A stretch of DNA of 55,652 bases from an uncultured Paracoccaceae bacterium (GTDB lineage: Bacteria > Pseudomonadota > Alphaproteobacteria > Rhodobacterales > Rhodobacteraceae): positions 1 through 55,652 of the forward strand of contig CAIYZT010000358.1 in assembly GCA_903930735.1 (NCBI GenBank), read 5' to 3'. Within the stretch, counting starts at the first letter, position 1. Every line of letters starts with the position of its first letter. The position numbers and the translations under genes were made by a program. The notes beneath the pieces are model-generated. The model was not told the origin of the DNA. It searched no databases and saw nothing but the letters and a program-made list of their open reading frames with translations. Positions 27,128 through 49,556 of the stretch are shown here, piece by piece.

Positions 27128-27159
27128 CCGCACCTTTCCCGGCCAGTGCGGGTCTTGGA

Positions 27160-27190: not shown

Positions 27191-27211
27191 GTTGCCCTCG
27201 GGACTATACAC

Positions 27212-28425: not shown

Positions 28426-28497
28426 GCGGGAGAAATCTTCCTTTGCTGTTGATATCCGGTGCCTTCGTTATGCTCTCAGCGTGAAGGTGGCGGACCG

Positions 28498-28532
28498 ATG
28501 GGGAAGCGGTGGGCCAAAAGCTGCTTCCCCAT
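28498..28532 (+). terminator. Rho-independent-like hairpin before tRNA-Arg
   Basis: Arms ATGGGGAAGC and GCTTCCCCAT (10 bp, perfect) around a 15-base loop, followed by TTCATTTCT. It sits 68 bases before tRNA-Arg and about 25 bases after a possible -10 box, which would make a transcript of about 60 bases. Confidence 0.55.
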
Positions 28533-28600
28533 TTCATTTCTAAGTCCCGCAGAACTTGCTGCCCGCTTAGAAGCCGTTTAGACAGGGTGGCGAAGATGTG

Positions 28601-28927
28601 GTCTGCGTAGCTCAGCTGGATAGAGCACAGGATTCCTAAAACGAAAGAATTGGGCGCCTCGTTTGGAAACGGCGGGGCGGATCTGCTCAAAGTCGGGGAA
28701 AGCTGAGGCGTGCTTGCGCCGTGCCGATCCCGAGCCAAGCCCGAGGGGAAACCCAAAGGGAAGGTGTAGAGACTGGACGGGCAGGGCCTGGGGGTGCGCA
28801 GCATCTATGGCCAAGGGACAGTCCAGACCACGAACCGACGTCTTTGCGGGATGCAAAGACTAGGGCGGCGAAAGCCGAAGTGGTACGAATCCTGGGGCCG
28901 TGGGTTCAAATCCCGCCGCGGACACCA
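28601..28927 (+). tRNA. tRNA-Arg (CCU), split by an intron
   Basis: The 5' exon (28601-28637) gives acceptor GTCTGCG, D arm GCTCAGCTGGATAGAGC, stem CAGGA and loop start TTCCT with anticodon CCT (28635-28637). The 3' exon (28888-28924, then encoded CCA) gives AA, TCCTG, the T arm GTGGGTTCAAATCCCGC and acceptor CGCGGAC. When 28638-28887 is removed the anticodon arm closes exactly as CAGGA-TTCCTAA-TCCTG. The mature tRNA is 77 nt with CCA. It reads AGG codons. Confidence 0.95.
28638..28887 (+). ncRNA. Group I intron (IC3-like) in tRNA-Arg
   Basis: 250 nt inserted after U36 of the anticodon. It ends in G, as group I introns do. A P1 can be drawn: exon CCU plus AA pairs with UUGGG (28649-28653), giving the required U-G at the 5' splice site. 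Core blocks recall cyanobacterial tRNA-Leu introns: GAGCCAAGCC near 28730, AAGGTGTAGAGACTGGACGG (28761-28780), then GACAGTCC (28817-28824), which gives P7 as GACTG with CAGTC. ATGCAAAGACTA (28851-28862) and a GGC-GAAA-GCC tetraloop hairpin (28867-28876) close the structure. No homing endonuclease gene fits. Position and host tRNA match the known Agrobacterium tRNA-Arg intron. Confidence 0.92.
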
Positions 28928-28939
28928 TCTTTGTCAAAA

Positions 28940-28961
28940 GCCCGGAGTTGATGCTCCGGGC
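28940..28961. terminator. Bidirectional terminator between tRNA-Arg and glnT
   Basis: Arms GCCCGGAG and CTCCGGGC (8 bp) around TTGATG, followed by GTTTCAC on the plus strand and by TTTTGACAAA on the other. It separates the tRNA from the convergent glnT gene. Confidence 0.6.
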
Positions 28962-28969
28962 GTTTCACA

Positions 28970-30277: not shown

Positions 30278-30304
30278 TTTGGTAACTCCCTGTCGTCTTT
30301 GTTT

Positions 30305-31636
30305 TTATAGCCCGCCGCTATTACGGCCGGGAATCCAGTTAGTTCCTGCGATCGGAACACCAGCCATGGCGGCGGCTTCGATGGTCAGGGCGCAAAGGTC
30401 TTCGGGTTCGAGGTTGTGCAGGTGATTCTTGCCGCAGGCCCGCGCGATGGTTTGCGCCTCTAGCGTCATCACTTTGAGATAGTTTTTCAAGCGGCGCCCG
30501 CCCAGGATCGGATCGAAGCGCGCTGAAAGGGCCGGGTCCTGCGTGGTGATGCCGGCCGGATCGCGGCCCTCGTGCCAATCGTCATAGGCATCGGCGGTGG
30601 TGCCCAGCTTTTGGTATTCGCTTTCCCATTTCGGGTCATTATCGCCCAGCGCAATCAGGGCAGCCGTACCAATAGCCACAGCGTCGGCGCCCAGCGCCAT
30701 CGCCTTGGCCACATCGGCCCCGCTGCGGATACCGCCCGAGACGATCAGCTGAACCTTGCGGTGCATGCCGAGGTCTTGCAGCGCCTTCACCGCTAGGGGG
30801 ATACAGGCCAGAATGGGCATGCCGACATGTTCAATGAACACATCCTGCGTCGCCGCCGTGCCGCCTTGCATACCGTCCAGAACCACAACATCGGCGCCAG
30901 CCTTCACCGCCAAAGCGGTATCGTAATAGGGGCGCGCGCCGCCGATTTTCACGTAGATCGGCTTTTCCCAATCGGTGATCTCGCGCAGTTCCATGATCTT
31001 GATTTCCAGATCATCGGGGCCGGTCCAGTCGGGGTGGCGGCAGGCCGAGCGTTGGTCGATGCCTTTGGGCAGGTTGCGCATGGCAGCCACGCGGTCCGAG
31101 ATTTTCTGGCCCAGCAGCATGCCGCCGCCGCCCGGTTTCGCACCCTGGCCCACGACGATTTCGATCGCATCCGCGCGGCGCAGATCGTCGGGGTTCATGC
31201 CGTAGCGCGAGGGCAGGTATTGATAGACCAAAGTGCGGGAATGTCCGCGCTCTTCTTCGGTCATGCCGCCGTCGCCCGTGGTGGTCGAGGTGCCGGCGGC
31301 GCTTGCCCCGCGGCCCAGGGCCTCTTTGGCCGGGCCGGAAAGCGCGCCAAAGGACATGCCGGCGATGGTGACCGGAATATCCAGATGGATCGGCTTTTTG
31401 GCAAAACGGGTGCCGAGCCAGACATCAGTGGCGCATTTCTCGCGGTAGCCTTCCAGCGGATAGCGGCTGATCGACGCGCCGAGGAACAAGAGGTCATCGA
31501 AATGCGGCAGGGCGCGTTTGGTGCCGCCGCCGCGAATATCGTAGATGCCGGTAGCGGCAGCGCGGCGAATTTCCGCGTTGATGGCCGGGGTGAAGGTGGC
31601 GGAAAAGCGGGGCGGGGTACGTGGAAAATCTGACAT
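30305..31636 (-). CDS. FMN-binding glutamate synthase-like subunit
   Basis: 443 residues, TIM-barrel of the glutamate synthase large subunit (GltB central domain). GMSFGALSGPAKEALGRGA (about 94-112), YLPSRYGMNPDDLRRADAIEIVVGQGAKPGGGGML, VLDGMQGGTAATQD and IVSGGIRSGADVAKAMALGADAVAIG form the FMN and substrate sites. The Cys run that binds the iron-sulfur cluster (about CRHPDW, with CACGKN later) is partly visible. It corresponds to GlxD or MgsC, which make glutamate or N-methylglutamate. The ATG at 31636 was chosen over a 23-residue extension. It follows the GXGXG subunit by 13 bases. Confidence 0.88.
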   Translation of the reverse strand: MSDFPRTPPRFSATFTPAINAEIRRAAATGIYDIRGGGTKRALPHFDDLLFLGASISRYPLEGYREKCATDVWLGTRFAKKPIHLDIPVTIAGMSFGALSGPAKEALGRGASAAGTSTTTGDGGMTEEERGHSRTLVYQYLPSRYGMNPDDLRRADAIEIVVGQGAKPGGGGMLLGQKISDRVAAMRNLPKGIDQRSACRHPDWTGPDDLEIKIMELREITDWEKPIYVKIGGARPYYDTALAVKAGADVVVLDGMQGGTAATQDVFIEHVGMPILACIPLAVKALQDLGMHRKVQLIVSGGIRSGADVAKAMALGADAVAIGTAALIALGDNDPKWESEYQKLGTTADAYDDWHEGRDPAGITTQDPALSARFDPILGGRRLKNYLKVMTLEAQTIARACGKNHLHNLEPEDLCALTIEAAAMAGVPIAGTNWIPGRNSGGL

Positions 31637-31649
31637 ATTGCCTATTGCC

Positions 31650-32339
31650 TCAGTAGGAGGACGCGTTGTCGATGTTGAAAGAATAGAGCGTCCGCGCCGA
31701 ACCATAGCGGCGGAATTCGGAAGGCTTGGCCTTGGTATCTGCCTCGCCGCGCTTTAGCAGATCGGCCAAAAGCGCCAGATGTTCGGGGCGCATTTCTTTT
31801 TCGATGCAATCGGCGCCCAGCGATTTGACCGAGCCGCGCACAAAAAGTCGCGCCTCGTACAGGCTGTCACCCAGCGCATCGCCCGCGTCGCCCAGGACGA
31901 CCATGGTGCCCGATTGCGCCATGAAGGCCGACATATGGCCGATGTTGCCATGCACGACAATCTCGATGCCCTTCATTGAGATACCGCAGCGGCTGCTGGC
32001 GTTGCCCTTGATCACCAAAAGCCCGCCGCGCCCGGTAGCGCCCGCATATTGGCTGGCGTCGCCGTCGATGATCACGCTGCCCGACATCATGTTTTCGGCA
32101 ACACCGGGGCCAGCCGAGCCCTTGATTCGAATCGTCGCCAGCTTGTTCATTCCGGCGCAATAATAGCCGGTAGAACCGCGCACGGTGATGTCCAAAGCGG
32201 CATCCACGCCGGCCGCGATGGCGTGCGAGCCCTTGGGATTGATCACCTCCCATTCGGTCATATTGGTCTGGCCCTTCAGCGCATGCAGCGCGGAATTGAG
32301 CGCGCGCAAGCCCTGCGCGCCAAGGTCAAAGGTCTGCAT
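31650..32339 (-). CDS. Glutamate synthase GXGXG-domain subunit
   Basis: 229 residues, a right-handed beta-helix like the C-terminal domain of GltB. The repeating Gly pattern is clear: GMNKLATIRIKGSAGPGVAENMMSGS, then GDASQYAGATGRGGLLVIKGNASSRCG, then GNIGHMSAFMAQSGTMVVLGDAGDALGDSLYEA. It equals GlxC/MgsB, a separate subunit where GltB has a fused domain. ATG 32339 begins 2 nt after the GATase stop. Confidence 0.85.
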   Translation of the reverse strand: MQTFDLGAQGLRALNSALHALKGQTNMTEWEVINPKGSHAIAAGVDAALDITVRGSTGYYCAGMNKLATIRIKGSAGPGVAENMMSGSVIIDGDASQYAGATGRGGLLVIKGNASSRCGISMKGIEIVVHGNIGHMSAFMAQSGTMVVLGDAGDALGDSLYEARLFVRGSVKSLGADCIEKEMRPEHLALLADLLKRGEADTKAKPSEFRRYGSARTLYSFNIDNASSY

Positions 32340-32341
32340 TG

Positions 32342-33238
32342 TCAGCGCTCCCAGAAATAGACGGTTGCGGGTTCGGGCTCCCACACGCGGGCATTCTCAA
32401 TACCCGGAAGGCCGACAAGGGCGCGATATTCGGACCCAAAGGCGACGTAATCATCGGTTTCGGCCATGACGGCGGGCTTGCACGCGATTGGATCGCGAAC
32501 CACGCCAAAGCCGTTCTTGGTGCCGACGACAAAGGTAAAAAACCCATCCAGATCGGTCAGCGTCGCCTCTAGCGCATTACCAAGGCTCTCGCCGGTTTGC
32601 AGCTTGTGGCTGATGAAGGCGGCGCCGACCTCGGTGTCATTCTCGGTCTCAAAGGTCATTCCCAGACGTTTCAGCTCGCGCCGCACGCCATTGTGGTTTG
32701 ACAAGGATCCGTTGTGGACAAGGCACTGATCGGAGCCAGTCGAAAACGGATGCGCGCCCATCGTGGTCACGGCGGATTCGGTGGCCATGCGGGTATGGCC
32801 GATGCCATGGGTGCCGGTCATCTTGGCCACGTCAAAGCGGCGCGCAACATCGCGCGGCAGGCCAACCTCTTTGAATATCTCGATGGATTCGCCCGCACTC
32901 ATCACCTTTACGTTCGGGCGCAGATGGGTAAGGGCCGAACGGGCGGCCTCCATCTGGGCGACCGGAACCTCAAGAACGGCATGGGTGGACTTGATCAGCA
33001 TCCGCACCGGGGTGCCGATGGCGTTTTTCAAATCCTCATCAAGGGTTTTGAAATCCACCTCTGGGTGCGAGGACTGCACGGTGATCTTGGCGCGGCCCTT
33101 TTGCGGGGCGGAATAGATCGCGATGCCGGCCGAATCCGGGCCGCGGTCGGTCATGGTGATCAACATATCGGCCAAGAGGGTGCCGAGTTGAGATTCAAGC
33201 TTTGGGTCTTTCAGGAAGAGCCCAACGATTCCGCACAT
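32342..33238 (-). CDS. Class II glutamine amidotransferase subunit
   Basis: 298 residues. MCGIVGLFLKDP puts the catalytic Cys at position 2, the mark of Ntn-type glutamine amidotransferases. GHTRMATESAVTTMGAHPFS and VHNGSLSNHNGVRRELKR are the conserved substrate and oxyanion parts. It splits glutamine or passes ammonia or an amine to the FMN subunit and equals GlxB/MgsA. It is the first gene of the leftward operon GATase, GXGXG, FMN subunit, glnT. GGAG lies 8 bases before the start. Confidence 0.88.
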   Translation of the reverse strand: MCGIVGLFLKDPKLESQLGTLLADMLITMTDRGPDSAGIAIYSAPQKGRAKITVQSSHPEVDFKTLDEDLKNAIGTPVRMLIKSTHAVLEVPVAQMEAARSALTHLRPNVKVMSAGESIEIFKEVGLPRDVARRFDVAKMTGTHGIGHTRMATESAVTTMGAHPFSTGSDQCLVHNGSLSNHNGVRRELKRLGMTFETENDTEVGAAFISHKLQTGESLGNALEATLTDLDGFFTFVVGTKNGFGVVRDPIACKPAVMAETDDYVAFGSEYRALVGLPGIENARVWEPEPATVYFWER

Positions 33239-33474
33239 GGCGTCGTCTCCTTTTTATCCGTGTATCAGGCTAGCAAGATTGAAATCCGGGTTCAACTGAT
33301 AAGAAACATTTTTCACCTGTCGGGAAAATCTTTTCGCCGAGCCTGTTTTTCGGGCAGTTTTGCTTGACAGAATGCCGCAGGATCGATTTCCTTTGAGAAA
33401 AAATTTGCCGGATAGGGAAGTGGCGCAGCGGTCGCGTGAGGTCTGGCAAGCAGAGGACCGAATGGGAGGGCTAG
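33239..33474. promoter_or_regulatory. Divergent control region of the amine/glutamate cluster
   Basis: 236 bases between the GATase operon (left) and the small-protein/permease operon (right). The left side shows TTGAAC, 17 bases, TAGCCT on the minus strand; the right side shows TTGACA at 33365 with a weak -10. The XRE-cupin regulator further right is a candidate to bind here. I saw no sigma-54 box (GG-N10-GC) that convinces me. Confidence 0.4.
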
Positions 33475-33762
33475 ATGGCGGACCTTGATCAAAGGATTGA
33501 GGCCATGCACAAACGGGATGTCCAGGTGGCCTGGACGTTTGTGATTGGTCTGTGGGTTGCGATGATTTTTGTCGCTGTGGCGACGTGGGATCTTGCACCA
33601 AACGGCGGCGCGCGGATCATGCTGCTGATCGGCGGCGCGGTGGTTTTGCTGTTCAACACGGCGGCCATCCTGGCGATGCTAAAGCATTACCGCGAAGACC
33701 GCGACTTCATCTATGGGCTCGACATCCGCTTTCTGGATGAAGCCAACAGCGGGAGGGGTTGA
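33475..33762 (+). CDS. Small two-span membrane protein, unknown
   Basis: 95 residues. The start has GGGAGGG before it. It has a polar N-terminus, then two hydrophobic spans (VAWTFVIGLWVAMIFVAVAT, about 18-37, and IMLLIGGAVVLLFNTAAILAML, about 48-69), then a charged tail (KHYREDRDFIYGLDIRF). I do not recognise the family. It starts a rightward four-gene operon with two other small membrane proteins and an APC permease, so it may be an accessory subunit of that transporter. Confidence 0.7.
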   Translation: MADLDQRIEAMHKRDVQVAWTFVIGLWVAMIFVAVATWDLAPNGGARIMLLIGGAVVLLFNTAAILAMLKHYREDRDFIYGLDIRFLDEANSGRG

Positions 33763-33765
33763 GCC

Positions 33766-34146
33766 ATGGCGCATTATACTCCGCCCGTGCAGGGCAAAAT
33801 GGGCCAGCTGATCGACGTGATCGTTCTGGTGGTCCTGACGGTCGGGGCGCTGTTCGTGCCACTCTGGATGGGGCTGGCCGGATCGTCGAAAACCGTGGCG
33901 ACGCCGGTTGAAAACCCGACCTGGGAAACACTGGGCCAAAACCCGGTACAGGCCGCGCAATATGAGGCGCTGGGGTATGATCCAGCGGGTGCGCACGACC
34001 TGATCCTGGCGCGGTTCGACTACAGCTTTTCGGTCTCGGCCGTGCTGATCATGGTCGTGGTGATCGTGGTCTACTACGCGCTGATGCTCAAGTTTTCCGA
34101 ATCCGAATACCGCGACGTGATCGCGGAAAAATTCGACAGCAAATAG
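33766..34146 (+). CDS. Small two-span membrane protein, unknown
   Basis: 126 residues, 3 bases after the previous gene. Span one is IDVIVLVVLTVGALFVPLWMGLA (about 16-38). A loop of about 50 residues, likely outside the membrane (ATPVENPTWETLGQNPVQAAQYEALGYD), follows, and span two is SFSVSAVLIMVVVIVVYYALML (about 87-108), with a charged C-terminal tail. The family is unknown to me. Location suggests a role with the adjacent permease. Confidence 0.7.
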   Translation: MAHYTPPVQGKMGQLIDVIVLVVLTVGALFVPLWMGLAGSSKTVATPVENPTWETLGQNPVQAAQYEALGYDPAGAHDLILARFDYSFSVSAVLIMVVVIVVYYALMLKFSESEYRDVIAEKFDSK

Positions 34147-34155
34147 GGGGCCGAG

Positions 34156-34323
34156 ATGCAAACCTGGAATTACCTGGAATATGCGGCCTGGGGGCTATCG
34201 GCCCTCTTCGGCCTCGCCATGCTGGTGGATTGGTTTCGCACCGACACCACCTATTCCGAAGATGTCCTGACCTCTTCTCGCGAAGGCGAGCTTGAGGCCA
34301 TGACCGAAGAGCACAAGGTATAG
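34156..34323 (+). CDS. Small single-span protein, unknown
   Basis: 55 residues, starting MQTWNYLEYAAWGLSALFGL, with one membrane span near 10-25 and an acidic C-terminal tail (SREGELEAMTEEHKV). GGGGGCCGAG precedes the ATG, the frame is open to a TAG 4 bases before the permease ATG, and the spacing fits an operon. It is too short for usual gene callers, so it may be missed in annotations. Confidence 0.65.
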   Translation: MQTWNYLEYAAWGLSALFGLAMLVDWFRTDTTYSEDVLTSSREGELEAMTEEHKV

Positions 34324-34327
34324 GACA

Positions 34328-35767
34328 ATGGCACAAACCAATATCGGGTCAAAAACGATGGACGGCATGGGGCCGAAGGGCACCAAGGTCGGCCTGCTAC
34401 GCGTCCTGGGACCGGCGCATGTATGGGCGCTGGGCGTCGGGATCGTTCTGGTCGGCGAATACATGGGCTGGAATTTTGCGGTCGGCAAGGGCGGGGCCTA
34501 TGCGGCGCTGATCGCCTGCTGGTTCGCGGGGATCCTCTATACCTGCGTGGCGATGATCGACAGTGAGGTCACCTCGACCGTCGCGGCGGCGGGCGGGCAA
34601 TATACTCAGGCCAAACATATCGTCGGCCCGCTGATGGCGTTCAACGTCGGGCTTTACCTTGTGTTCGCCTATACGATGCTGGAGGCGGGCAATGCGATTA
34701 CCGCCGGTTATCTGGTCTCGGTCGTCGCGGGCATGTCGGGACATGAGGGGGCACTGGACCAGCGGCCGTTCATCATTCTGGTCATCATGTCGCTGGCCTG
34801 GCTGAACTATCGCGGCGTTCTCGCCACGCTTACCTTTAACCTGATCATCACCGCCATCGCCTTTGTCGCCATTCTGGTGCTGTTCGTTGCGACCACGGGT
34901 ATCGTGGGCGCCTCGATCATGCAGCACGGGGCCCTGATGGAGGGGGCGGCGGCCCTGCCCTACGGCTGGATCGGCATTCTCGCCGCCATGCACTTTGGCC
35001 TGTGGTTCTATCTCGGCATCGAGGGCACGACCCAAGCCGCCGAAGAGGTCCGCTCGCCCGCGCGCGCGCTGCCTTTCGGCACGCTGGCCGGGATCATGAC
35101 CCTGCTGATCGCGGCGACGCTGACATGGTATGTCTGCGTGGGCGTGCTGCCGTGGGAGTTTCTGGGTGACGGCGTGAATGGCTCGGTAGCGCCTTTGTTC
35201 GATACCGCGCGGCTTTCGGGATCGACCGGGCTGGTCTGGCTTTTGGGGATCGGCACGCTCTTTGCCACCCTCGCCAGCGCCAATGGCTGTATCAATGACG
35301 CAAGCCGCGCCTGGTTTTCGATGGGGCGCGACAAGTATCTGCCGGGCTGGTTCGGCGCGGTGCATCCGACCTACCGCACGCCCTACCGCGCGATCATCTT
35401 TCTGGTGCCGATCGCGCTGATCTTTGCGCTGGGCGCGCCGTTGGATCAGGTGATCACCTTCTCGATCCTCTCGGGGCTGCTGGGCTATACCTTCATGCCG
35501 CTGAACATCATCATGTTCCGCCGCAAATGGCCCCTGAACAGCATCAAGCGCGGCTACGAGCATCCCTTCCATCCGGTGCCCGCCATCGTGCTGCTATCGC
35601 TCTGCGCCATCACATTCTTTGCGGTGTTCCTCGGGTACGGCACGCAATTGGTGGCGATGATCGGGTTCTATATCGTGGTGTCGCTGTGGTTCCACTTCTG
35701 GCGCTACCGGTTCGTCAGCCGAGGCGCGCAGTTCACGATGCCTTGGCCAAAACCCAAGGGCTATTGA
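34328..35767 (+). CDS. APC-family amino acid/amine permease
   Basis: 479 residues with about twelve membrane spans, of the APC superfamily. GPAHVWALGVGIVLVGEYMG (about 29-48) is the unwound first-helix region where substrates bind, and MIDSEVTSTVAAAGGQY the next conserved part. FWYLGIEGTTQAAEEVRSPARALP (about 233-256) is the usual cytoplasmic loop. It is most like ethanolamine- or amine-type permeases. The operon with three small membrane proteins and divergence from the GlnT cluster suggest uptake of the amine or amino acid used by that cluster. The substrate is inferred. Confidence 0.85.
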   Translation: MAQTNIGSKTMDGMGPKGTKVGLLRVLGPAHVWALGVGIVLVGEYMGWNFAVGKGGAYAALIACWFAGILYTCVAMIDSEVTSTVAAAGGQYTQAKHIVGPLMAFNVGLYLVFAYTMLEAGNAITAGYLVSVVAGMSGHEGALDQRPFIILVIMSLAWLNYRGVLATLTFNLIITAIAFVAILVLFVATTGIVGASIMQHGALMEGAAALPYGWIGILAAMHFGLWFYLGIEGTTQAAEEVRSPARALPFGTLAGIMTLLIAATLTWYVCVGVLPWEFLGDGVNGSVAPLFDTARLSGSTGLVWLLGIGTLFATLASANGCINDASRAWFSMGRDKYLPGWFGAVHPTYRTPYRAIIFLVPIALIFALGAPLDQVITFSILSGLLGYTFMPLNIIMFRRKWPLNSIKRGYEHPFHPVPAIVLLSLCAITFFAVFLGYGTQLVAMIGFYIVVSLWFHFWRYRFVSRGAQFTMPWPKPKGY

Positions 35768-35777
35768 TCCGACCAAG

Positions 35778-35804
35778 GGGCCCGCCGCACTGGCGGGCCC
35801 TTTC
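35778..35804 (+). terminator. Terminator after the permease gene
   Basis: Arms GGGCCCGCC (35778-35786) and GGCGGGCCC (35792-35800), 9 bp perfect, loop GCACT, followed by TTTCCTTTTG. A good intrinsic terminator 10 bases after the stop. Confidence 0.85.
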
Positions 35805-35809
35805 CTTTT

Positions 35810-36490
35810 GTGAAAGCCCTCATGTCCATCAAAATGGTCTTTGCCGTTCTGGCCGCCGTCCTGCTGGTTTGGCTCGCTCGCGCGCAGTGGCTGGCGGCGG
35901 CACGGCGCAAGGCGGCGCGGGCAGGCTATTTCGCCGATGTCGCCGGGCTGTTTGACCGGGTAGTCACCCGAATACAGCCCAACGGCTTTGCGCGGATGAC
36001 CGGGCACCTCGGCGCTCATGCCTTTGATCTGCAAGCCGTGCCCGACAGCCTGACGTTCCGCAAGCTACCCGCGCTTTGGGTGATGGTCACCCTGCCCGAG
36101 CCCTTGCCCCTGCAAGCCACGCTGAACGTGATGGCTCGGCCGACCGGCGGCGAGCCGTTTTCGCATTTCGCAGCGCTGTCCCATAGCCTGCCCTGCCCCG
36201 ATTACCTGCCCGAGGGGACGGCGGTGCGCAGCGATGATGCGGCGCTGGTTGATGCTGGTTTTCTGCAAAGCCCGAGCGCGCTGTTTGCCGATCCAAAGGT
36301 CAAAGAGCTGGTGATCTCGCCCAAAGGGTTGCGGCTGGTGATCCTTGCCGAAGAGGCGGACCGGGGGATGTTTCTTTTGTTCCGCGACGCGGAGGTCGGG
36401 GGCGAGCCTTTGGCTGCTACCCGGATTTCCGCCATTTTAGAGACGCTTTTGGCCTTGCGGGCCGAGATATTTCGGACAAAAGAGGCCTGA
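35810..36490 (+). CDS. Unknown N-anchored protein
   Basis: 226 residues from GTG 35810 (ATG 35822, MSIKMVFAVL, is the alternative). The N-terminus is one membrane span (FAVLAAVLLVWLARAQWL, about 10-28). The rest is soluble without a motif I recognise, with a run of alternating hydrophobic residues and a HFAALSHSLPCPDY segment. It is 2-5 bases upstream of the next gene and beyond the permease terminator, so it belongs to a separate unit. A cytoplasmic or periplasmic role is not clear. Confidence 0.65.
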   Translation: MKALMSIKMVFAVLAAVLLVWLARAQWLAAARRKAARAGYFADVAGLFDRVVTRIQPNGFARMTGHLGAHAFDLQAVPDSLTFRKLPALWVMVTLPEPLPLQATLNVMARPTGGEPFSHFAALSHSLPCPDYLPEGTAVRSDDAALVDAGFLQSPSALFADPKVKELVISPKGLRLVILAEEADRGMFLLFRDAEVGGEPLAATRISAILETLLALRAEIFRTKEA

Positions 36491-36760
36491 ATGAAAAAGC
36501 CATTGAACCCCATCTTGATCCTGATCACCGCCGTGCTCTTGCCGGGCATGGGGCAGGTCTTGAACCGCCAGCCTCTGCGGGGGCTGATCTTTGTGTTCTT
36601 CATAGTCCTCTTGGGCGCCTTCACCCTGAAAACCGCCGCACCGGAGGTTTCTTTTGTGGGCAAGATGTCGGGCGGGCTTTTTGTCTGGGCGATGGCGATC
36701 TTTGACGCCTATAAAACCGCGCGAATCCGGGCGGCGGTTTGGGAACATGGGCCGAAATAG
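36491..36760 (+). CDS. Small two-span membrane protein, unknown
   Basis: 89 residues, ATG directly after the TGA of the previous gene, so co-translated. ILILITAVLLPGMGQVLNRQ and RGLIFVFFIVLLGAFTLK are two spans joined by a short loop; the sequence PGMGQVLNRQPLRGL resembles the short helical pair of TM2-like or DUF5683-like proteins. A third span may be present (GGLFVWAMAIFDAYK). Function unknown. It is convergent with the XRE-cupin gene, with a 14-base gap. Confidence 0.65.
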   Translation: MKKPLNPILILITAVLLPGMGQVLNRQPLRGLIFVFFIVLLGAFTLKTAAPEVSFVGKMSGGLFVWAMAIFDAYKTARIRAAVWEHGPK

Positions 36761-36774
36761 GGCTTTGGTCGCGC

Positions 36775-37452
36775 TTATCCCTGCGGGTAGGAAATTACCG
36801 ACAGGTATTTCGCGGGCAGCTTGACCAGAACCTCGGGTCCGTGCGGCGCGTCGGCGTCAAAAAACAGGCTGTCGCCGGGTTTCAGTGCGTAGACCTGATC
36901 GCCGTGGCGATAGTCCACCTCACCTTCGAGCATATAGAGCAGCTCCAGCCCCTCATGCTGAAAGGCGGGGAAAATGTCGCTCTCGGCGGTCAGGGTGATC
37001 AGGTAGGGCTCGACCACGACGCCCGAAGAATTAGAACCTATATGGCCCAAAAGGTTGTACTGATGGCCAGCGCGGGTGCCCCGGCGTTCAATCTCCAGGT
37101 GGGCGCCAGATTTGACGTGATGCGCCTCGCGGCGCTCTTCGTAGCTTTTGAAAAATGAGGTGACGGGCACCGAAAAGGCGTGGCTCAGCACCTGAAGCGT
37201 TGTCAGAGAGGGCGAGGTATTGCCGTTCTCAATCTTGGACAACATGCCGATCGACAGACCGGTGATCTGCGCCAAATCGGCAACGGTCATGCCCTGCTGA
37301 CGGCGAAAAATCCGCACTTCGCGGCCAATGGCGGCCTCCAGATTGCGCTCGGTGATTTCGCGGACGCGGTGGGGGTCCTGATCGAATGCCGGTTTGCCGC
37401 GCGGCAGGGACGAAGCCACCTCTGTCGGAATAATTGCCAAGTGGTCCCCCAT
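36775..37452 (-). CDS. XRE-cupin transcriptional regulator
   Basis: 225 residues. An N-terminal Xre-type helix-turn-helix (IGREVRIFRRQQGMTVADLA, then QITGLSIGMLSKIENGNTSPSLTTLQVLSHAF, about 42-95) is followed by a cupin domain (ELLYMLEGEVDYRHGDQVYALKPGDSLFFDADAPHGPEVL, about 166-205). Such regulators (PuuR-like) often control amine or amino-acid use, including glnT clusters. It lies 1 kb beyond the permease operon, in the opposite direction, and probably acts on 33239-33474. The ligand is unknown. Confidence 0.85.
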   Translation of the reverse strand: MGDHLAIIPTEVASSLPRGKPAFDQDPHRVREITERNLEAAIGREVRIFRRQQGMTVADLAQITGLSIGMLSKIENGNTSPSLTTLQVLSHAFSVPVTSFFKSYEERREAHHVKSGAHLEIERRGTRAGHQYNLLGHIGSNSSGVVVEPYLITLTAESDIFPAFQHEGLELLYMLEGEVDYRHGDQVYALKPGDSLFFDADAPHGPEVLVKLPAKYLSVISYPQG

Positions 37453-37510
37453 ATACCTGCCTGATTTTCACTACAGGGAAACATGGGCCAGATCAAGCCG
37501 GGCGCAAGGT

Positions 37511-38215
37511 CTAGCCGATGAACCGGTTCCAAACAGCTGTGGCGCCCATTTTTTCCACAAGCTTTTCATGGGCGGCCAACTCTTCGGTGCTTGTTCTTTC
37601 GGGCAGGGTGTTCGGGCGCGGCGATGGGCGCCAATCTGGTTCGGCATCAACCCCAGAGGCGGCGCGGTTTTGGCCAGTGGGGCCGGACAGCACCAGATCG
37701 GGTTGGCGGCCGCCGATGAGTTCGAGGTAAACCTCGGCCAGAATCTCGCTGTCCAAGAGCGCGCCGTGCTTTTCGCGTTTGGAGTTATCGACACCAAAGC
37801 GGCGGCACAAAGCGTCGAGTGAGGCGGGCGAGCCCGGGTACTTGGCGCGGGCCAGCGCGACGGTATCAAGGGCGCGGGCCATGGGCAGAGCGGGGCGGCC
37901 CGCTCGGGTCAACTCGGCGTTTAGGAATTTCATGTCAAAGCCGGCGTTGTGGATGACGAGCCGGGCATCGCCGATAAAGGCCAGAAAATCGGCGGCACAG
38001 GCGGAAAACAGCGGTTTTCCGCGCAGGAAATCATCGCCGAGGCCATGCACCTCGAAAGCCTCTTTGGGCATCAGGCGCTCGGGGTTCAGATATTGGTGAT
38101 AGGTGCGGCCGCTGGGCATGTGGCCGATCAGCTCTACCGCGCCAATCTCGACGATGCGGTGGCCTTCGGCGGGCTCAAAGCCGGTGGTTTCGGTGTCCAG
38201 TACTATCTCACGCAT
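37511..38215 (-). CDS. dnaQ: DNA polymerase III epsilon subunit
   Basis: 3'-5' proofreading exonuclease. 234 residues. The exo motifs are present: MREIVLDTETTGFEP (Asp and Glu, motif I), LVIHNAGFDMKFLN (motif II), and KREKHGALLDSEILAEVY (motif III with HxAxxD). It overlaps the end of coaE by 8 bases and is the last gene of the leftward maf-aroE-coaE-dnaQ unit. The last ~60 residues are the low-complexity region that binds the alpha subunit. Confidence 0.95.
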   Translation of the reverse strand: MREIVLDTETTGFEPAEGHRIVEIGAVELIGHMPSGRTYHQYLNPERLMPKEAFEVHGLGDDFLRGKPLFSACAADFLAFIGDARLVIHNAGFDMKFLNAELTRAGRPALPMARALDTVALARAKYPGSPASLDALCRRFGVDNSKREKHGALLDSEILAEVYLELIGGRQPDLVLSGPTGQNRAASGVDAEPDWRPSPRPNTLPERTSTEELAAHEKLVEKMGATAVWNRFIG

Positions 38216-38804: not shown

Positions 38805-39640
38805 AGCGAAAGCAAGGCGTTGCGGGTGGCGTCGTCTACCTCGGGGCGCTGACCGAACCAACGCTCGAACCCCGGAGCGGCCTGATGGAGGAGCATTCCG
38901 AGGCCATCGACCACGGTGCAACCTGCGGCCTCAGCCTCGATCAGCAATTGGGTTTTCAGGGGGGCATAGACGAGGTCAGTGACCAGCATCCCGCGGCGCA
39001 GGGCATCGAGGGGCACGCGCAGATCAGGCTTGCCGACCATGCCGAGCGAGGTCGTGTTGACCAGCATGGCGCAGCCTTCGATCATGTTTCCGGCCTGTAC
39101 CCATTCATGGACCTGAACCTTTGCGCCGAAATCGGAACGCAGGGCATCGGCGCGGAGGCGGGTTCGGTTGCCGACGCGGATCTCGGGGACGCCGACCTCG
39201 ATCAGGGCGGCGATGACTGCGCGTGAGGCGCCACCGGCACCGAGGACGGCGGCGGGGCCGGCAGCAGGGTTCCAAGTGGGGACATGCTGGCGCAGATTGG
39301 CGATAAAGCCGGAGCCATCGCTGTTATCGGCATAAATCTTGCCGTTTTTGCGGAAAATCAGCGTGTTGGCGGCGCCGATCAGGGCGGCGCGGTCGGTGAC
39401 GACATCAGCCAGCTTCAGCACCTCTTCCTTGTAGGGAATGGTGACGTTGACGCCGACGAAACCAAGACGCGGCAGCATATGCAGCGCCTCGCGCAGATCG
39501 CCCGGCGCGATGTCGAGGGGGATGTAATGGCCCTTGATGCCGAGGCGTTTCAGCCAAAATCCGTGCAGGGCCGGGGATTTGCTATGGGCAATCGGGTGGC
39601 CGATGACGCCTGCGAGGGGGATGCGGGGAAGGTCGGTCAT
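38801..39640 (-). CDS. aroE: Shikimate dehydrogenase
   Basis: Reduces 3-dehydroshikimate to shikimate with NADPH. 279 residues. [18 protein letters not shown] (about 14-31) and [16 protein letters not shown] (about 64-79, with the catalytic Lys) are the substrate site, [16 protein letters not shown] (about 133-148) the NADP site. Its start overlaps the end of maf by 4 bases. Part of the conserved origin-left block. Confidence 0.96.
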
Positions 39641-40242
39641 TTGGGGATGAAGCCTCGCAGAGCAAGATAGGACAGCAGGGGCAAAAGGGGCAGGCCCAGA
39701 ACGGTAAAGTAATCGCCCGAAATCTCGGTGAAAAGCCGAACCCCCTCTTGTTCCAGCTTATAACCGCCGACCGAGCTGGCGATTTCGGGCCAGTTGCGGG
39801 CGAGATAGGCGTCAAGATAGGCGTCCGAGACCGGGCGCATGGTCAGCTGCGCGGTGCCGGTATGGCGCCAGATCGGCTTGCCCGCGTCATAAAGCACGGC
39901 AGCCGAGAGCAGGCGGTGGGTGTTGCCGCGTAGTGCAGTGATCTGGGCGCGGGCCTCATCGATGGTTTCGGGCTTGGACAGGATTTGTCCCGCAAAATCG
40001 AGGATCTGATCGCAGCCGAGCACGAGGGCGGAGGGGTTTTTGTCGGCGATGCGCTGGGCCTTCATTTCCGCCAGGGCGTCGGCGACGTCATTCGGCTTTG
40101 CATCCTCGGCCAAAAGCGAGGCGCGGATCATTTCTTCGTCGATGCGGGGGGGGACGGCGGTGACATGGAGGCCGGCCGCGCGCAACAGATTGGCGCGGAT
40201 CTCGGAGCCGGAGGCGAGGATCAGGGGGCGGAGGTCGGACAT
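39637..40242 (-). CDS. maf: Maf family nucleotide pyrophosphatase
   Basis: 201 residues, homologous to Maf/RP001, the gene bordering oriC in Rickettsia and Caulobacter. [18 protein letters not shown] (about 8-25) is the Maf signature and [10 protein letters not shown] (about 73-82) a catalytic part; [17 protein letters not shown] is the conserved C-terminal piece. Maf enzymes hydrolyse non-canonical or modified nucleoside triphosphates. The minus-strand ATG is at 40240-40242; the first DnaA box begins 7 bases beyond it. Confidence 0.92.
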
Positions 40243-40620
40243 TTGGGCTGTGGATAAACACTTTATGTTCTGGGGGAGTATTTGGGGCGAGATGGCCCCG
40301 GAGACGATGGAGCCGTGGTTCCAGGGCGATTGTCAATGCTCCGGTGCCGTTTGCTCACAGGGGGATGGGGGGTTGGGGCGTGAAGGGGAGAGGCGGCTGA
40401 CCGAAAATGATCCCGGCTTTCGTACACAAGTGCGGCAATCAAAACTTATTGATTCTATAAGATAAAATAGGTGGTTTTGGAGATTTTCCCAGTCTTTCCA
40501 CAGGCTTGTGCGCTGTGGATAGAGCTGCGGATGAAAACAGCCATTCCCATATCCGCAGGGCCTACTACAACATCTTTCCTTATATATCTTTTCTTCTTTA
40601 AGAAGGGGCACGGGAGGAAC
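40243..40620. other. oriC: Candidate chromosomal replication origin (oriC)
   Basis: 378 bases without a gene between maf (leftward) and hemJ (rightward). TGTGGATAA at 40249-40257 is a perfect DnaA box; TGTGGATAG (40514-40522) and CTTTCCACA (40494-40502) are near matches. The centre (40430-40480) is A+T-rich with the dyad AATCAA and TTGATT (40437-40454) and a TATAAGATAAAATAGG run, suited to unwinding. A second A+T-rich stretch is at 40570-40600. Genes on both sides point away from it, the RP001/maf neighbour is the known alphaproteobacterial marker, and parAB with parS follows within 4-9 kb. Strong inference, not proof. Confidence 0.75.
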
Positions 40621-41073
40621 ATGATGGGCGAGTTTCTGGCGGATTGGTATCTTTGGTCGAAATCTTTGCATATCATTTCGGTGGTTGCCTGGATGGCTGG
40701 GCTTTTCTATCTGCCGAGGCTGATGGTCTATCACGCCGAGCAGGTCGAAAAGGGCTCGGCCACCGAGGCGATGTTTCAGCAGATGGAACGGCGGCTCTTG
40801 AGGGCGATCATGGGGCCGGCGATGATCGCGACCTGGGTCTTTGGTCTGTCGCTGGTATTTACTCCGGGGATCGTGGACTGGGGGCAGGTCTGGCCTTGGG
40901 TCAAGGCGGCCAGCGTTATTGCCATGACCGGGTTTCACGAATGGCTGGCGGCTCGGGTGCAGGATTTTGCGGCGGGGCAGAACCGGATCACGGGGCGAAA
41001 CTACCGGATTGCCAATGAAGTGCCGACTTTGCTGCTGATTATCATCGTTTTCTCGGTGGTGGTAAAGTTCTGA
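40621..41073 (+). CDS. hemJ: Protoporphyrinogen oxidase HemJ
   Basis: Membrane enzyme oxidising protoporphyrinogen IX to protoporphyrin IX in heme and chlorophyll synthesis. 150 residues. SLHIISVVAWMAGLFYLPRLMVYH (about 16-39) holds the conserved His and Arg; four hydrophobic spans follow the usual plan. ATG 40621 follows GGGAGG, so the longer frame starting inside the origin region (40471) is not used. It stands in the place that hemE/RP883-type genes occupy near oriC in related bacteria. Confidence 0.88.
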   Translation: MMGEFLADWYLWSKSLHIISVVAWMAGLFYLPRLMVYHAEQVEKGSATEAMFQQMERRLLRAIMGPAMIATWVFGLSLVFTPGIVDWGQVWPWVKAASVIAMTGFHEWLAARVQDFAAGQNRITGRNYRIANEVPTLLLIIIVFSVVVKF

Positions 41074-43779: not shown

Positions 43780-45662
43780 GGGCGTTTCACGTGAAACATT
43801 TTGATGTCGTAGTTATTGGCGGTGGGCATGCTGGGGCGGAGGCTGCTGCAGCGTCGGCGCGGATGGGCGCGCGGACGGCGTTGGTGACGATGTCGGCGGC
43901 GAATGTGGGGGTGATGTCCTGCAATCCTGCCATCGGCGGCCTCGGTAAGGGGCATTTGGTTCGCGAAATCGACGCCTTGGACGGAATCATGGGGCGGGCG
44001 GCGGATGAGGCGGGGATTCAGTTTCGGCTTTTGAACAAGCGCAAGGGGCCCGCCGTGCAGGGGCCGCGGGTGCAGGCCGACCGCAAGATCTATCGGCAGG
44101 CGATCCAGCGGCTTTTGGCGGAAACGCAGGGATTGACGATTGTGGAGGGCGAGGTTGTTGATCTGCAGATGCAGGTGGGCGGCGGGGTCAGGGGCTGCGT
44201 TTTGGCGGATGGGACTGAGTTGTCAGCCAGCGCGATTGTTCTTACGGCGGGCACTTTTCTGAATGGACTGATGCATATCGGCGGCGAGCGAAAGACGGGC
44301 GGGCGGGTCGGAGATGCGGCCTCGGTACGACTGGCGAACCGCTTGGCGGACATGAAGCTGGCGCGCGGGCGTCTCAAAACGGGCACGCCGCCGCGGCTGG
44401 ATGGTCGCACAATCGATTGGTCGCGGCTGGAATTGCAGCCCGGTGATGATGTTGCGTCGATGTTTTCCTTTCTAAACAAGGCGCCCTTTGTCCGTCAGGT
44501 CAGCTGCGGTATCACTCATACCAATGAGCGGACCCATGACATTGTCCGCGCAAATCTGGCCCGCTCGGCCATGTATGGCGGCCATATTGACGGTGTCGGC
44601 CCCCGCTACTGCCCGTCAATCGAGGACAAGGTGGTGCGCTTTGCGGACAAGGCCTCGCATCAGGTCTATCTGGAGCCGGAGGGTTTGGACGACCACACGA
44701 TCTACCCGAACGGCATTTCGTCGTCTTTGCCCGTTTCGGTGCAGCACGATTATGTGCGTTCGATCGCCGGGTTGGAGGCGGTTACGATTTTGCAGCCGGC
44801 CTATGCGATCGAGTACGACTTTTTTGATCCGATGGGACTGAAGCCAACTTTGGAGCTGGTGGCCTGTCCAGGCCTGTATTTAGCTGGGCAGATCAACGGC
44901 ACGACCGGTTATGAAGAGGCCGCAGCGCAGGGACTGGTTGCGGGGGCCAATGCGGCGGCGGTGGCGAAGGGCTTGCCAATGCTACGGTTTGAACGTTCGA
45001 GCAGCTATATCGGTGTGTTGCTGGATGATTTGATCACCCGCGGTGTCAGCGAACCCTACCGTATGTTTACCTCGCGGGCCGAGTTCCGGCTTTCCTTGCG
45101 GGCCGACAATGCTGATCAGCGCCTGACGGCTTTTGGAATTGAACATGGCCTGGTCGGTCCCGGTCGACGCGCAGCCTTTGTGGAAAAGAGCGCTGCGCTG
45201 AGCGCGGCCCGCGGCTTGCTAGAGGGAAAGAGTTTTAGTCCCAAGGAGTTGGTGGCGGCGGGCGTTGCGACGTGTGGTGATGGCCAGCGGCGGACGGCGC
45301 TGCAGGTTCTGTCGCAAGCGGGTGTTGATCTGGCTGGAATTGATGCGCTGGTTCCGGAATGGGCGCAGACCGCTGCCGAGATAAAGCAGCAAATTGCCTG
45401 TGACGCGCTCTATTCTCATTACATTATCCGGCAACAATCAGAAGCATTCGGCCTTTCGCAGGCGATGGGGCGGCATATCCCGGAGGAATTCGACTATGAC
45501 GTGCTGTCGGGTCTTTCGTCTGAACTGACCAGCAAGCTCAAGCGTTTGCGGCCAACGACATTGGATATAGCAGGCAGGGTCGAGGGGATGACCCCGGCGG
45601 CATTGACGCTGATTCTCGCGCATCTAAAAAAGGGCGAGAAGAGCCGGGCAGCAGCGGGATGA
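43776..45662 (+). CDS. mnmG: tRNA uridine 5-carboxymethylaminomethyl modification protein MnmG
   Basis: FAD-dependent partner of MnmE. 628 residues. [21 protein letters not shown] (about 11-31) is the FAD-binding loop; [37 protein letters not shown] and [16 protein letters not shown] are GidA signatures. GTG 43776 is the start used (coupled to mnmE); GTG 43791 is possible. A parS site lies across codons 3-8. Confidence 0.97.
43783..43798. other. parS: parS site 1 (mnmG 5' end)
   Basis: CGTTTCACGTGAAACA, matching the bacterial consensus TGTTTCACGTGAAACA at 15 of 16 positions. It is inside the start of mnmG, reading as AFHVKH. ParB is encoded 3.3 kb to the right. Confidence 0.9.
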
Positions 45663-46285
45663 ACACTGCTGATCGCTATGTTCCGGATTGGCTAGATGTT
45701 TCACGTGAAACACTAGCCGCGCTGGTAGAGCTTGAGGCGCTGGTGTTGAAGTGGACCACAACAGTGAATCTGATTTCGAAGACCTCAGCCTTGGATATCT
45801 GGGGCCGGCACATGCTGGACTCTGCCCAAATTGCAAAATTGGTCACGGCCAAAGGCTCTGACTGGGCTGATCTTGGCAGCGGCGGCGGTTTTCCTGGCCT
45901 CGTTCTGGCAGTTATAGGCAGAGAGATCTGGCCGCAGCGCCGGTTCACGCTCGTCGAATCAGATGCAAGGAAAGCGGCCTTTCTAGCGCAAGCAAACAAG
46001 ACGCTGGGCCTAAACGTGACCATCCTTGTCCAACGTGTGGAGGCTCTGTCGCCGCTTTCCGCCCATTCCGTCACTGCCCGAGCGCTTGCTCCACTTGAGG
46101 TTTTGCTGGGTTTCGCGCATCGGCACCTGCGGACTGGAGGCAAAGCCTACTTTCCCAAGGGTGCGACCTATCGGCAAGAGGTTGAGGCGGCGCGGATAAA
46201 GTGGCAGTTTGAAGAAATCGCGCATGTGAGCCGGACAGACCCGCAATCTGCAATACTTGAGGTGAAAAACATTGACCCGCGCTGA
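45659..46285 (+). CDS. rsmG: 16S rRNA guanine(527)-N7 methyltransferase
   Basis: 208 residues; methylates G527 of 16S rRNA using [22 protein letters not shown] (about 63-81) is the SAM-binding motif, with [13 protein letters not shown] after it. ATG overlaps the mnmG stop by 4 nt. The second parS lies across codons 13-18, giving DVSRETL. Confidence 0.93.
45697..45712. other. parS: parS site 2 (rsmG 5' end)
   Basis: TGTTTCACGTGAAACA, an exact consensus parS, inside rsmG. GGCTAG stands before it and CTAGCC just after it, so the palindrome extends with an offset of one base. Confidence 0.95.
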
Positions 46286-47093
46286 TCCAACCAGGCCCGC
46301 TTTGCCGAAAGTTTTCGCGGTCTCCAACCAGAAGGGCGGGGTTGGAAAGACCACGACAACGATCAATCTAGCGCATGGGTTGGCCGAAGCCGGAGCCCGA
46401 GTTCTGATCGTTGACGTCGATCCGCAGGGGAACGCCTCTACTGGCCTCGGTATTTCTCCGGAACGTCGCCGCATTACTTCCTATGATGTCTTGCTGGATG
46501 AGGCTCCGATTTCGGAAGCGATCATGGAAACGTCGATCGCCAATCTCTATATCTGCCCCGCCAATGCAGATCTTTCCTCGGCCGATGTTGAGTTGGTTTC
46601 GAACGAAAAGCGGATTTTTTTGCTCCAAGACGCACTACGCCAGCCGGACATGGACCGTTTCCGCTTTGATTTCGTTCTTATTGACTGCCCGCCGTCGCTG
46701 AATCTGCTGACTGTCAATGCGATGATTGCAGCCAATGCGGTGATCGTGCCGCTTCAGGCTGAATTTTTTGCTCTCGAGGGTCTGTCGCAGTTGCTGTTAA
46801 CCATCCGCGAGATCCGGCAAACCGGCAATCCGAGCTTGCGGATCGAGGGTGTACTTTTGACCATGTTCGACAGCCGCAACCGTCTTTGCCATCAAGTCGA
46901 AGCCGACGCTCGCAACAATCTTGGCGACGTGGTCTACAACACCGTCATTCCGCGAAACGTTCGGGTCAGCGAGGCACCGTCCTTTGCGATGTCAGTGCTG
47001 CAATATGATCCCACCTCGAAAGGCGCAGAGGCCTATCGTGCCCTGGCCGCGGAAATTCTAACAAGAAACCCGATCGCCGGATCCAAGGAGTAG
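46272..47093 (+). CDS. parA: Chromosome partitioning ATPase ParA
   Basis: 273 residues. AVSNQKGGVGKTTTTINLAH (about 15-34) is the deviant Walker A with the signature Lys; DVDPQGNASTGLG and LIDCPPSLNLLTVNAM follow. Start: TTG 46272 preceded by GAGGTG, overlapping the rsmG end by 14 bases. ParA with ParB moves the origin to the cell pole. Confidence 0.95.
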   Translation: MTRADPTRPALPKVFAVSNQKGGVGKTTTTINLAHGLAEAGARVLIVDVDPQGNASTGLGISPERRRITSYDVLLDEAPISEAIMETSIANLYICPANADLSSADVELVSNEKRIFLLQDALRQPDMDRFRFDFVLIDCPPSLNLLTVNAMIAANAVIVPLQAEFFALEGLSQLLLTIREIRQTGNPSLRIEGVLLTMFDSRNRLCHQVEADARNNLGDVVYNTVIPRNVRVSEAPSFAMSVLQYDPTSKGAEAYRALAAEILTRNPIAGSKE

Positions 47094-47095
47094 TC

Positions 47096-47998
47096 ATGGA
47101 CAAGAAACAAGAACGGCGCGGTTTAGGGCGCGGCCTGTCCGCCCTGATGTCCGATATCAACCTTTCCGCTGATGGGCCCGCGTCGGATTCGCAGCGTCGT
47201 CCAGAGCTTCGCCTGCCAATCGAGCGGATTTTTCCAAACCCCAATCAACCCCGTCGTGATTTCGACCAAGAGCCGCTGGAATCCCTCGCGAACTCAATTC
47301 GGCAAAAGGGTGTCCTCCAGCCCCTCATCGTTCGGCCGCGCCCGGCTGCAGAGGGAGACTTTGAAATCGTCGCGGGTGAGCGGCGTTGGCGCGCATCGCA
47401 ACTCGCGAATCTGCATGAAATTCCGGTGGTGATCCGAGATCTTGACGATGTTGAAGTGATTGAAATCGCAATCATCGAAAACATTCAGCGCGCTGATTTG
47501 AATGCTATTGAAGAGGCGCTTGGCTATCGGCAGCTGATGGATCGGTTTGGCCATACGCAAGAAAAAATAGCTGAAGCACTCTCCCGCAGTCGCAGTCATA
47601 TTGCGAATCTGTTGCGTCTGCTCTCCTTGCCGGAGGATGTCCAGATTCTCGTCCGCGAGGGAAAGCTGTCTGCTGGTCATGCGCGGGCAGTCATCACCAG
47701 CGCAGAGCCGTCAAGGCTTGCGCAACTTGCGGTCCAGCGCGGTCTGTCGGTGCGGGATGTGGAAAAGTTGGCCAAGAATACCAAGGCTCAAAAGGCCGCG
47801 CCTAGAACGGGTAACGTCAAAGACGCCGACACGCGGGCGATCGAACAGGATCTGAGCGCGGGTCTTAAACTGCCGGTGTCGATTGCGCACACGATTGACG
47901 GCAGCGGCACCCTCTCGGTCCGCTACTACAATCTCGAGGATCTCGATATGCTCTGCAGGGCGCTTTCGATCGCTCGGCGGGATGATATTCGGGACTAG
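47096..47998 (+). CDS. parB: Chromosome partitioning protein ParB
   Basis: 300 residues. The CTP-binding N-terminal part shows NPNQPRRDFDQEPLESLA, GERRWRAS and EIAIIENIQRADLNAIEEALGY; the helix-turn-helix is RFGHTQEKIAEALSRSRSHIAN (about 155-176); the C-terminal dimer domain is short. Start 2 nt after parA. It binds the parS sites at 43.8, 45.7 and 49.5 kb. Confidence 0.95.
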   Translation: MDKKQERRGLGRGLSALMSDINLSADGPASDSQRRPELRLPIERIFPNPNQPRRDFDQEPLESLANSIRQKGVLQPLIVRPRPAAEGDFEIVAGERRWRASQLANLHEIPVVIRDLDDVEVIEIAIIENIQRADLNAIEEALGYRQLMDRFGHTQEKIAEALSRSRSHIANLLRLLSLPEDVQILVREGKLSAGHARAVITSAEPSRLAQLAVQRGLSVRDVEKLAKNTKAQKAAPRTGNVKDADTRAIEQDLSAGLKLPVSIAHTIDGSGTLSVRYYNLEDLDMLCRALSIARRDDIRD

Positions 47999-49172: not shown

Positions 49173-49556
49173 TTAGCCCTTGAAAGCCGTAACTTCGATT
49201 TCAATCTTCATTTCCGGGCGGATCAGGCCGGCGATGACCATGGTAGCGGCGGGCCGTATTTCCGATAGGGCCGCGCCAAGCTCCGGGATAATTTCGTCAA
49301 CAAAGCCAGTGTTGGTGACGGTATATTGCACCCGGACGATGTCATCCATTTCAAAACCGGCCTCGGTCAGGACCTTGGCAATGGTCGCAAAGCAGTTTCT
49401 GGTCTGGAGCGCCGCGCTGTCCGGGATTTCCATCGTGGCATAATCGTAGCCGGTAACGCCGGAGATGAAACACCAACCCGATTTCACAATGGCGCGGCTG
49501 TAACCCATGTTCTTTTCAAAAGCGGAACCTGTCGAGATACGTTTCACGTGAAACAC
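49173..49556 (-). CDS. ridA: RidA family enamine/imine deaminase
   Basis: 127 residues. The fold ends PAATMVIAGLIRPEMKIEIEVTAF, with the conserved Arg near the C-terminus and Glu. RidA removes reactive 2-aminoacrylate and similar. The start ATG is at 49554-49556, at the edge of a parS site; the first codons (MFHVKR) are the parS sequence. An internal start is possible, since RidA does not need these residues. Confidence 0.85.
   Translation of the reverse strand: MFHVKRISTGSAFEKNMGYSRAIVKSGWCFISGVTGYDYATMEIPDSAALQTRNCFATIAKVLTEAGFEMDDIVRVQYTVTNTGFVDEIIPELGAALSEIRPAATMVIAGLIRPEMKIEIEVTAFKG
49540..49555. other. parS: parS site 3 (ridA start / rdgB end)
   Basis: CGTTTCACGTGAAACA on the plus strand, 15 of 16 to the consensus, 1.5 kb after parB. 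It overlaps the ridA start and the last codons of rdgB. Confidence 0.9.

Follow-up and report, generated by a model that had tools for sequence, protein, structure and literature searches.

A candidate chromosomal replication origin between maf and hemJ in an uncultured Paracoccaceae bacterium

Among the Alphaproteobacteria, the origin of Caulobacter crescentus (Cori) sits between hemE and COG1806 (COG1806/DUF299, the family of RP001), in an intergenic gap of ~400 bp that carries DnaA boxes and an A+T-rich stretch (available text of PMC1914354). In the Rhodobacteraceae, oriCs have been predicted by Ori-Finder in 101 strains (PMC6699656), on criteria that, in the available text, resemble those used here (skew, DnaA boxes, and parAB nearby); this kind of origin is therefore already known in the family. 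The words maf, hemJ, and hemE have 0 occurrences in the available main text of that paper, which names no flanking genes, and nothing on the flanking genes of the origin was found in the available portions of PMC6667618 and PMC7901474. parAB has been suggested as an anchor for placing ori (available text of PMC8116508), and a basal unwinding system (BUS) with DnaA-trios has been described for Bacillus subtilis and others (available text of PMC8287927). In the open-licence PMC literature, we found no paper joining oriC, maf, and hemJ, and a search combining DnaA-trio, Alphaproteobacteria, and oriC matched only work on epsilonproteobacteria.

The window analyzed here is a 55,652-nucleotide stretch of DNA, contig C358 of a draft genome of 441 contigs and 3.65 Mb from an uncultured Paracoccaceae bacterium. 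A sequence-only reading of the window had proposed oriC in the gap between maf and hemJ, and this proposal is supported by the skew minima of relatives, by the clustering of DnaA boxes, and by a conserved element of the unwinding type. On the strength of homologous gaps and of GC skew minima in relatives, we consider it highly likely that the gap (40243 to 40620) is the chromosomal oriC, of the Rhodobacteraceae type, which would narrow the origin to ~400 bp in a family for which the cited literature offers software-predicted origins. It is very probably an ordinary DnaA-driven origin of its class, with neighboring genes rearranged in its family. Compared with Cori, the own genome has no COG1806 match, hemE lies elsewhere, the neighbors are maf and hemJ, and the patterns used detect zero CtrA sites (TTAA-N7-TTAA) and zero IHF sites in the window gap. 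The two layouts are linked by 7 of 14 further stretches (taken by hand, three of them from genomes already represented), which keep the order maf, COG1806, gap, hemE, hemJ.

The maf-hemJ gap and its DnaA boxes

The intergenic region between maf and hemJ measures exactly 378 bp, with the coordinates first read from the letters, and its flanking genes run outward, as had also been seen. The maf-like gene (39637 to 40242, minus strand) has its best NCBIfam match in PRK02478.1 (Maf-like protein; 204.7 bits, under the cutoff of 269), and hemJ (40621 to 41073, plus strand) matches TIGR00701 at 135.6 bits, slightly under the cutoff of 138.05. The best named match of this hemJ is from a Rhodobacteraceae MAG (78% identity), followed by Stagnihabitans tardus (71%). 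Gene order continues as aroE-coaE-dnaQ beyond maf and as rho-mnmE-mnmG-rsmG-parA-parB beyond hemJ, where the gene right of mnmG is presumably rsmG. A parA-like gene (NCBIfam matches under cutoff) and parB (TIGR00180 over cutoff) occupy 46272 to 47998 on the plus strand. With the parS consensus, a scan expected to return 0.07 sites at ≤3 mismatches located a perfect site at 45697 to 45712 (plus strand) and sites with one mismatch each at 43783 to 43798 and 49540 to 49555; these lie 3 to 9 kb right of the gap, so the earlier observation of parAB/parS within 9 kb holds. The sites at 43783 to 43798 and 45697 to 45712 are located in the 5'-terminal part of the mnmG and rsmG frames and there specify the peptides FHVKH and VSRET.

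Within the gap, a box scan returned a perfect DnaA box, TTATCCACA (40249 to 40257, minus strand), which adjoins the maf start codon; a TGTGGA site is aligned at this position in 4 of 5 relatives. Further to the right, CTTTCCACA (40494 to 40502, two mismatches) faces TGTGGATAG (40514 to 40522, one mismatch), and the arms TCCACAG (40497 to 40503) and CTGTGGA (40513 to 40519) account for the dyad of the sequence-only reading (40494 to 40522), which on its letters is a pair of inverted DnaA-box-like sites. The perfect box, a near match (that at 40514 to 40522), and the A+T-rich center of that reading were likewise recovered. The 50-bp bins that begin at 40418 and 40443 each have 70% A+T, within a central tract (40418 to 40492, 70% A+T) that holds one GANTC at 40451 to 40455. 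The sequence of this tract is poorly conserved relative to a same-genus relative, and the tract may act as a bend or provide a second site of opening; across the 39 homologous gaps defined below, A+T content peaks at 65 to 72% at 161 to 200 nt from hemJ.

The window gap contains 2 boxes at ≤1 mismatch, compared with 0.10 in dinucleotide shuffles, a count reached in 1 of 200 of these. Boxes are not enriched across the draft genome, given 315 sites at ≤1 mismatch against 293 in a reversed control (perfect boxes, 7 against 10). Three single-mismatch sites also lie within 406 bp in the interior of dnaQ (37551 to 37956), where they may reflect either chance or a DnaA-binding patch beside the origin. 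Because this dnaQ stretch is as rich in boxes as the gap, and because the cumulative GC skew of the window has no minimum at the gap but climbs through it to 46.4 kb, the window by itself makes a case for oriC that is suggestive only. The window's own skew was accordingly dropped as origin evidence.

The comparison with relatives drew on 44 hemJ loci (L002 to L045), including the window (L016) and two copies. hemJ matches were obtained in 52 of 61 genomes, and only the best 30 were taken as loci, so the locus set favors close hemJ relatives. Five genomes labeled as the same family that gave weak matches (G003, G010, G012, G021, and G026) and two with no match (G029 and G034) were left out of the layout counts. 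maf lies directly across the gap from hemJ in 38 of the 44 loci, COG1806 intervenes between maf and the gap in 2, and 4 are without maf at this place. A set of 39 gaps was obtained by removing L017 (gap identical to that of L002), L005 (a near copy of L004), and L036, L044, and L045 (no maf before hemJ). For L040 and L043, where COG1806 separates maf from the gap, the final 400 bases were kept; the gap of L037 starts near aroE, and the starts for L031 and L038 were set by hand. To judge by its gap, identical to that of L017, L002 would belong to the same genus as the window.

DnaA boxes cluster beyond chance in these homologous gaps as in the window gap. The 39 gaps hold 102 boxes at ≤1 mismatch, compared with 4.08 in shuffles (SD, 2.2; maximum, 10), and 12 perfect boxes, compared with 0.13 expected. 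For the named-collection loci (13 of 14, the near copy L005 being left out), box density is 7.62 per kb in the gap versus 0.19 per kb in the flanks, and the densest 400-bp box stretch overlaps the gap in 12 of the 13, the exception being L002. Counting against the oriC reading are the sparse gaps: two boxes at ≤1 mismatch in the window's own, one in that of its closest relative, L002 (as in L024, L025, and L038), and none in L030. Full CtrA sites occur in 8 of the 39 gaps and a loose IHF pattern in 12, in a pattern scan run without a shuffle control.

A candidate unwinding element beside hemJ

The sequence-only reading had stressed the A+T-rich center; a better unwinding candidate, which went unnoticed there, appears to lie beside hemJ at 40549 to 40601. 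It begins with a degenerate DnaA box, ATATCCGCA (40549 to 40557, plus strand, two mismatches), followed by GGG and by a 41-nt G-free strand (40561 to 40601, plus strand) that consists of CCTACTACAACATC and a T/A-rich tract and represents a candidate DnaA-trio-like element and DNA unwinding element. In full, the sequence reads ATATCCGCA-GGG-CCTACTACAACATCTTTCCTTATATATCTTTTCTTCTTTAA. Taken together, the degenerate box, GGG, and the G-free strand (CTACTACAACATC through to the T/A-rich part) upstream of hemJ are likely the unwinding element. The G-free run was matched in 0 of 200 shuffles. Relative to the same-genus relative, the bin from 40568 to 40592 is the most conserved of the gap (88%), followed by the end with the perfect box (76%), and parts of the A+T-rich center and dyad show 16 to 28% identity.

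Counterparts of this A+T-rich element are conserved across the homologous gaps. The G-free strand starts 52 to 91 nt before hemJ in 38 of 39 gaps; in all except L031 and L038 (37 of 39), its length exceeds expectation, being reached in ≤7 of 200 shuffles. A typical version of the element reads CCCTAC..CATCATCATC and then TTTCTTCTTTTCTTATTTATTATA. When the 40 nt upstream of the G-free strand are scanned, the best box has one mismatch in 22 gaps, two in 13, and three or four in 4, as counted without a shuffle control. CATCATC or ATCATCA is present in the last 110 nt of 29 of the 39 gaps, compared with 1.1 (maximum, 4) in 50 shuffles, and is absent from the last 110 nt of the window gap.

The window element has in common with the BUS (available text of PMC8287927) a box, a short GC-rich spacer, triplets beginning with 3'-GAT-5' (CTA on the plus strand), and A+T-rich DNA, whereas in most of the family the triplets are of the CATCATC type (3'-TAG-5') and often lie at a greater distance from the best box. 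We reproduced the first step only of the BUS rule as given in that text (a box at ≤2 mismatches, a spacer of 0 to 16, and ≥3 N-A-N trios). By this step, the window gap reaches at best 2 consecutive trios of the 3 needed. On the hemJ strand, 27 of the 39 gaps pass, compared with 5.9 in 50 shuffles (maximum, 10), with the best hit near hemJ in 15 of these and mid-gap in 12; the opposite strand reaches 3 trios in 14 of 39 gaps as well, in a count made without a shuffle control.

What remains new is the family-specific triplet tract. Tentatively, and with rather more doubt than conviction, we suggest that the Rhodobacteraceae origin may open at such a tract, which reads mostly CATCATC(ATC) along the hemJ strand (3'-TAG-5') and is unlike the canonical 3'-GAT-5' DnaA-trio, and that this tract may have evolved from CTACTAC-type tracts of other alphaproteobacterial families, with the own genome (CTACTACAACATC, later triplets without the middle A) as an intermediate. 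If this is true, the triplet tract would be a deviant DnaA-trio of the kind suspected by the BUS authors (available text of PMC8287927). In any case, the conserved triplet tract offers a directly testable role in DnaA-driven opening.

The 14 further stretches extend the comparison to loci where hemE adjoins the gap. hemE lies between the gap and hemJ in 11 of them, and COG1806 lies on the maf side in 8; only hemJ was seen in L057 and L059, and L050 has no hemE. Scored by eye and without a control, a C/A/T triplet tract is found upstream of hemE in all 11 hemE-bearing stretches, examples being CACTACTACTAC in L048, ACTACAACTACTACTAC in L058, and CACTACCACC in L047. The tract before hemE differs from the longest G-free run in L053 and L056. 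Immediately before hemJ, L036, L044, and L045 have coding DNA and no such tract. Since counterparts precede hemE (by eye) and the coding DNA before hemJ in these three loci lacks the tract, the tract goes with the origin. L048 and L058, which are from genomes of other families, carry CTACTACTAC triplet tracts upstream of hemE, and these are possible forerunners of the CATCATC tract.

Promoter function offers another account of the same DNA: the gap would be a divergent promoter region for maf and hemJ, and the T/A-rich tract would be promoter and leader DNA. Promoters and a hemJ ribosome-binding site are indeed to be expected in the gap, since maf and hemJ diverge, and in most of the 39 loci hemJ directly follows the conserved element. 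We nevertheless regard this account as very improbable, as it leaves unexplained the 25-fold excess of boxes and the skew minima described below, and as 11 of the 14 further stretches have a counterpart of the element before hemE (an uncontrolled judgment by eye). The narrower proposal that the element is a hemJ leader only was rejected on those counterparts, found by eye where hemE is the neighbor.

Under the oriC reading, we infer as follows which boxes bind DnaA, which way DnaA grows, and where exactly the duplex opens. The sites bound by DnaA would be the perfect box at the maf end, the facing pair mid-gap, and the degenerate box at 40549. From the last of these, DnaA-ATP would then spread over the duplex at 40561 to 40601 and open it, the helicase would load beside hemJ, and segregation of the duplicated origin would fall to ParB at the parS sites 3 to 9 kb to the right.

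GC skew and box clusters in three relatives

The full-genome skew check proposed by the sequence-only reading was run as a sampled version on three relatives (G004, G014, and Roseobacter sp. GAI101 [G061]), the own draft being in 441 contigs. In all three, the skew minimum lies 2 to 18 kb from the orthologous gap, and the remaining sampled signs are mostly concordant. G004 is a single contig of 3,558,757 bp. Its samples have positive skew between 0.2 and 1.5 Mb and negative skew between 1.7 and 3.4 Mb; two of the 20, at 20 kb and 970 kb, deviate weakly in sign. Within the densely read 239 kb, the minimum falls at 3,475,899, and hemJ starts at 3,477,463. In G014 (4,329,554 bp), read in 20-kb bins, the skew changes sign from the 1,160-kb to the 1,180-kb bin; over the 400 kb read densely, the lowest point is 1,163,224, nearly equaled at 1,180 kb, and hemJ is at 1,181,518. 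A slightly negative sample occurs at 2.0 Mb. In G061, a shallow minimum at 2,647,973 stays flat to 2,665 kb, with hemJ at 2,662,761 and one off-sign sample at 2.0 Mb.

These data bear directly on whether the true origin might instead be at dnaA, with the gap boxes forming a DnaA-titration or regulatory cluster. DnaA-titration clusters exist, and dnaA is not far from the gap: 81 kb in G004 (dnaA at position 16, measured round the circle), 216 kb in G014 (1,397,072), and 117 kb in G061 (2,779,852). G014 moreover shows weak skew from 1.26 to 1.40 Mb, with two negative bins, between the gap and dnaA. However, the cumulative skew turns 2 to 18 kb from the gap, with only small local dips or flat spots at dnaA; in G061, the rise after 2,665 kb flattens at 2.77 to 2.785 Mb, around dnaA. 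The densest 400-bp box cluster in each relative is also the maf-hemJ gap (6, 5, and 4 boxes in 579, 800, and 600 kb sampled for G004, G014, and G061), the dnaA regions being included in the box-scanned DNA of all three. A dnaA-linked origin was rejected on the relatives' skew, and we give the titration account even less weight than the promoter account.

Neighboring genes and their rearrangement

The sequence-only reading had equated maf with RP001, the marker gene of other origins; RP001 is instead COG1806/DUF299 (available text of PMC1914354). In relatives that keep COG1806, maf sits one gene further out. We searched for this gene with PF03618 (Kinase-PPPase), which we take to be the same family as COG1806. 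The profile search returned nothing for the own draft genome; 3 of the 14 genomes searched do have a PF03618 match, located each time between maf and the gap. hemE was found in all 14 genomes searched (13 over cutoff). The own hemE lies at 22569 to 23576, beside hemC and 17 kb left of the candidate origin, so the gap is not flanked here by hemE and COG1806. The earlier statement that the hemJ-rho side replaces the hemE side is correct in that hemE is not the right-hand neighbor, but it passed over the hemE 17 kb to the left.

The older right-hand order persists inside the family, as seen from L046 (G005, placed in the same family), with the order COG1806-gap-hemE-hemJ, and L051 (G018, same family), with maf-gap-hemE-hemJ. 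The origin of the class would have kept its place next to maf and the hemJ-rho-par block while the usual markers, COG1806 and hemE, were lost or moved; because both were lost or moved, rules built on COG1806 and hemE as neighbors can mislead.

Least probable of all is the account in which this strain has its active origin elsewhere and the gap is either a relic of an earlier origin or an origin segment misplaced by assembly: the draft genome has 4.45% contamination, its gene order left of dnaQ differs from that of G004, hemE is nearby, and the own gap is poor in boxes, but the gap is present as a single copy in the draft genome, the dnaQ-to-parB block is colinear with G004, and the right-hand element is the best-conserved bin relative to the same-genus relative.

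Several minor observations concern the DNA left of the candidate origin. hemC (minus strand) and hemE (plus strand) together span 21513 to 23576, and both are 0.66 Mb from hemJ in G004; either hemC/hemE moved near the origin or the draft is misjoined there. Counterparts of the two G004 genes adjoining dnaQ (at 23644 and 24172) lie 13 kb from dnaQ with order and strand inverted, and the rearrangement from 23644 to 37511 looks like an inversion ending at dnaQ. Between these genes and dnaQ are a type III glutamate-ammonia ligase gene and glutamate-synthase-like and ethanolamine-permease-like genes, a set that suggests an N-methylglutamate/methylamine cluster. Finally, positions 11961 to 12110 match the Rfam family Cis2_sRNA (Ruegeria cis2 sRNA) at 52.1 bits, barely over the gathering score of 50.
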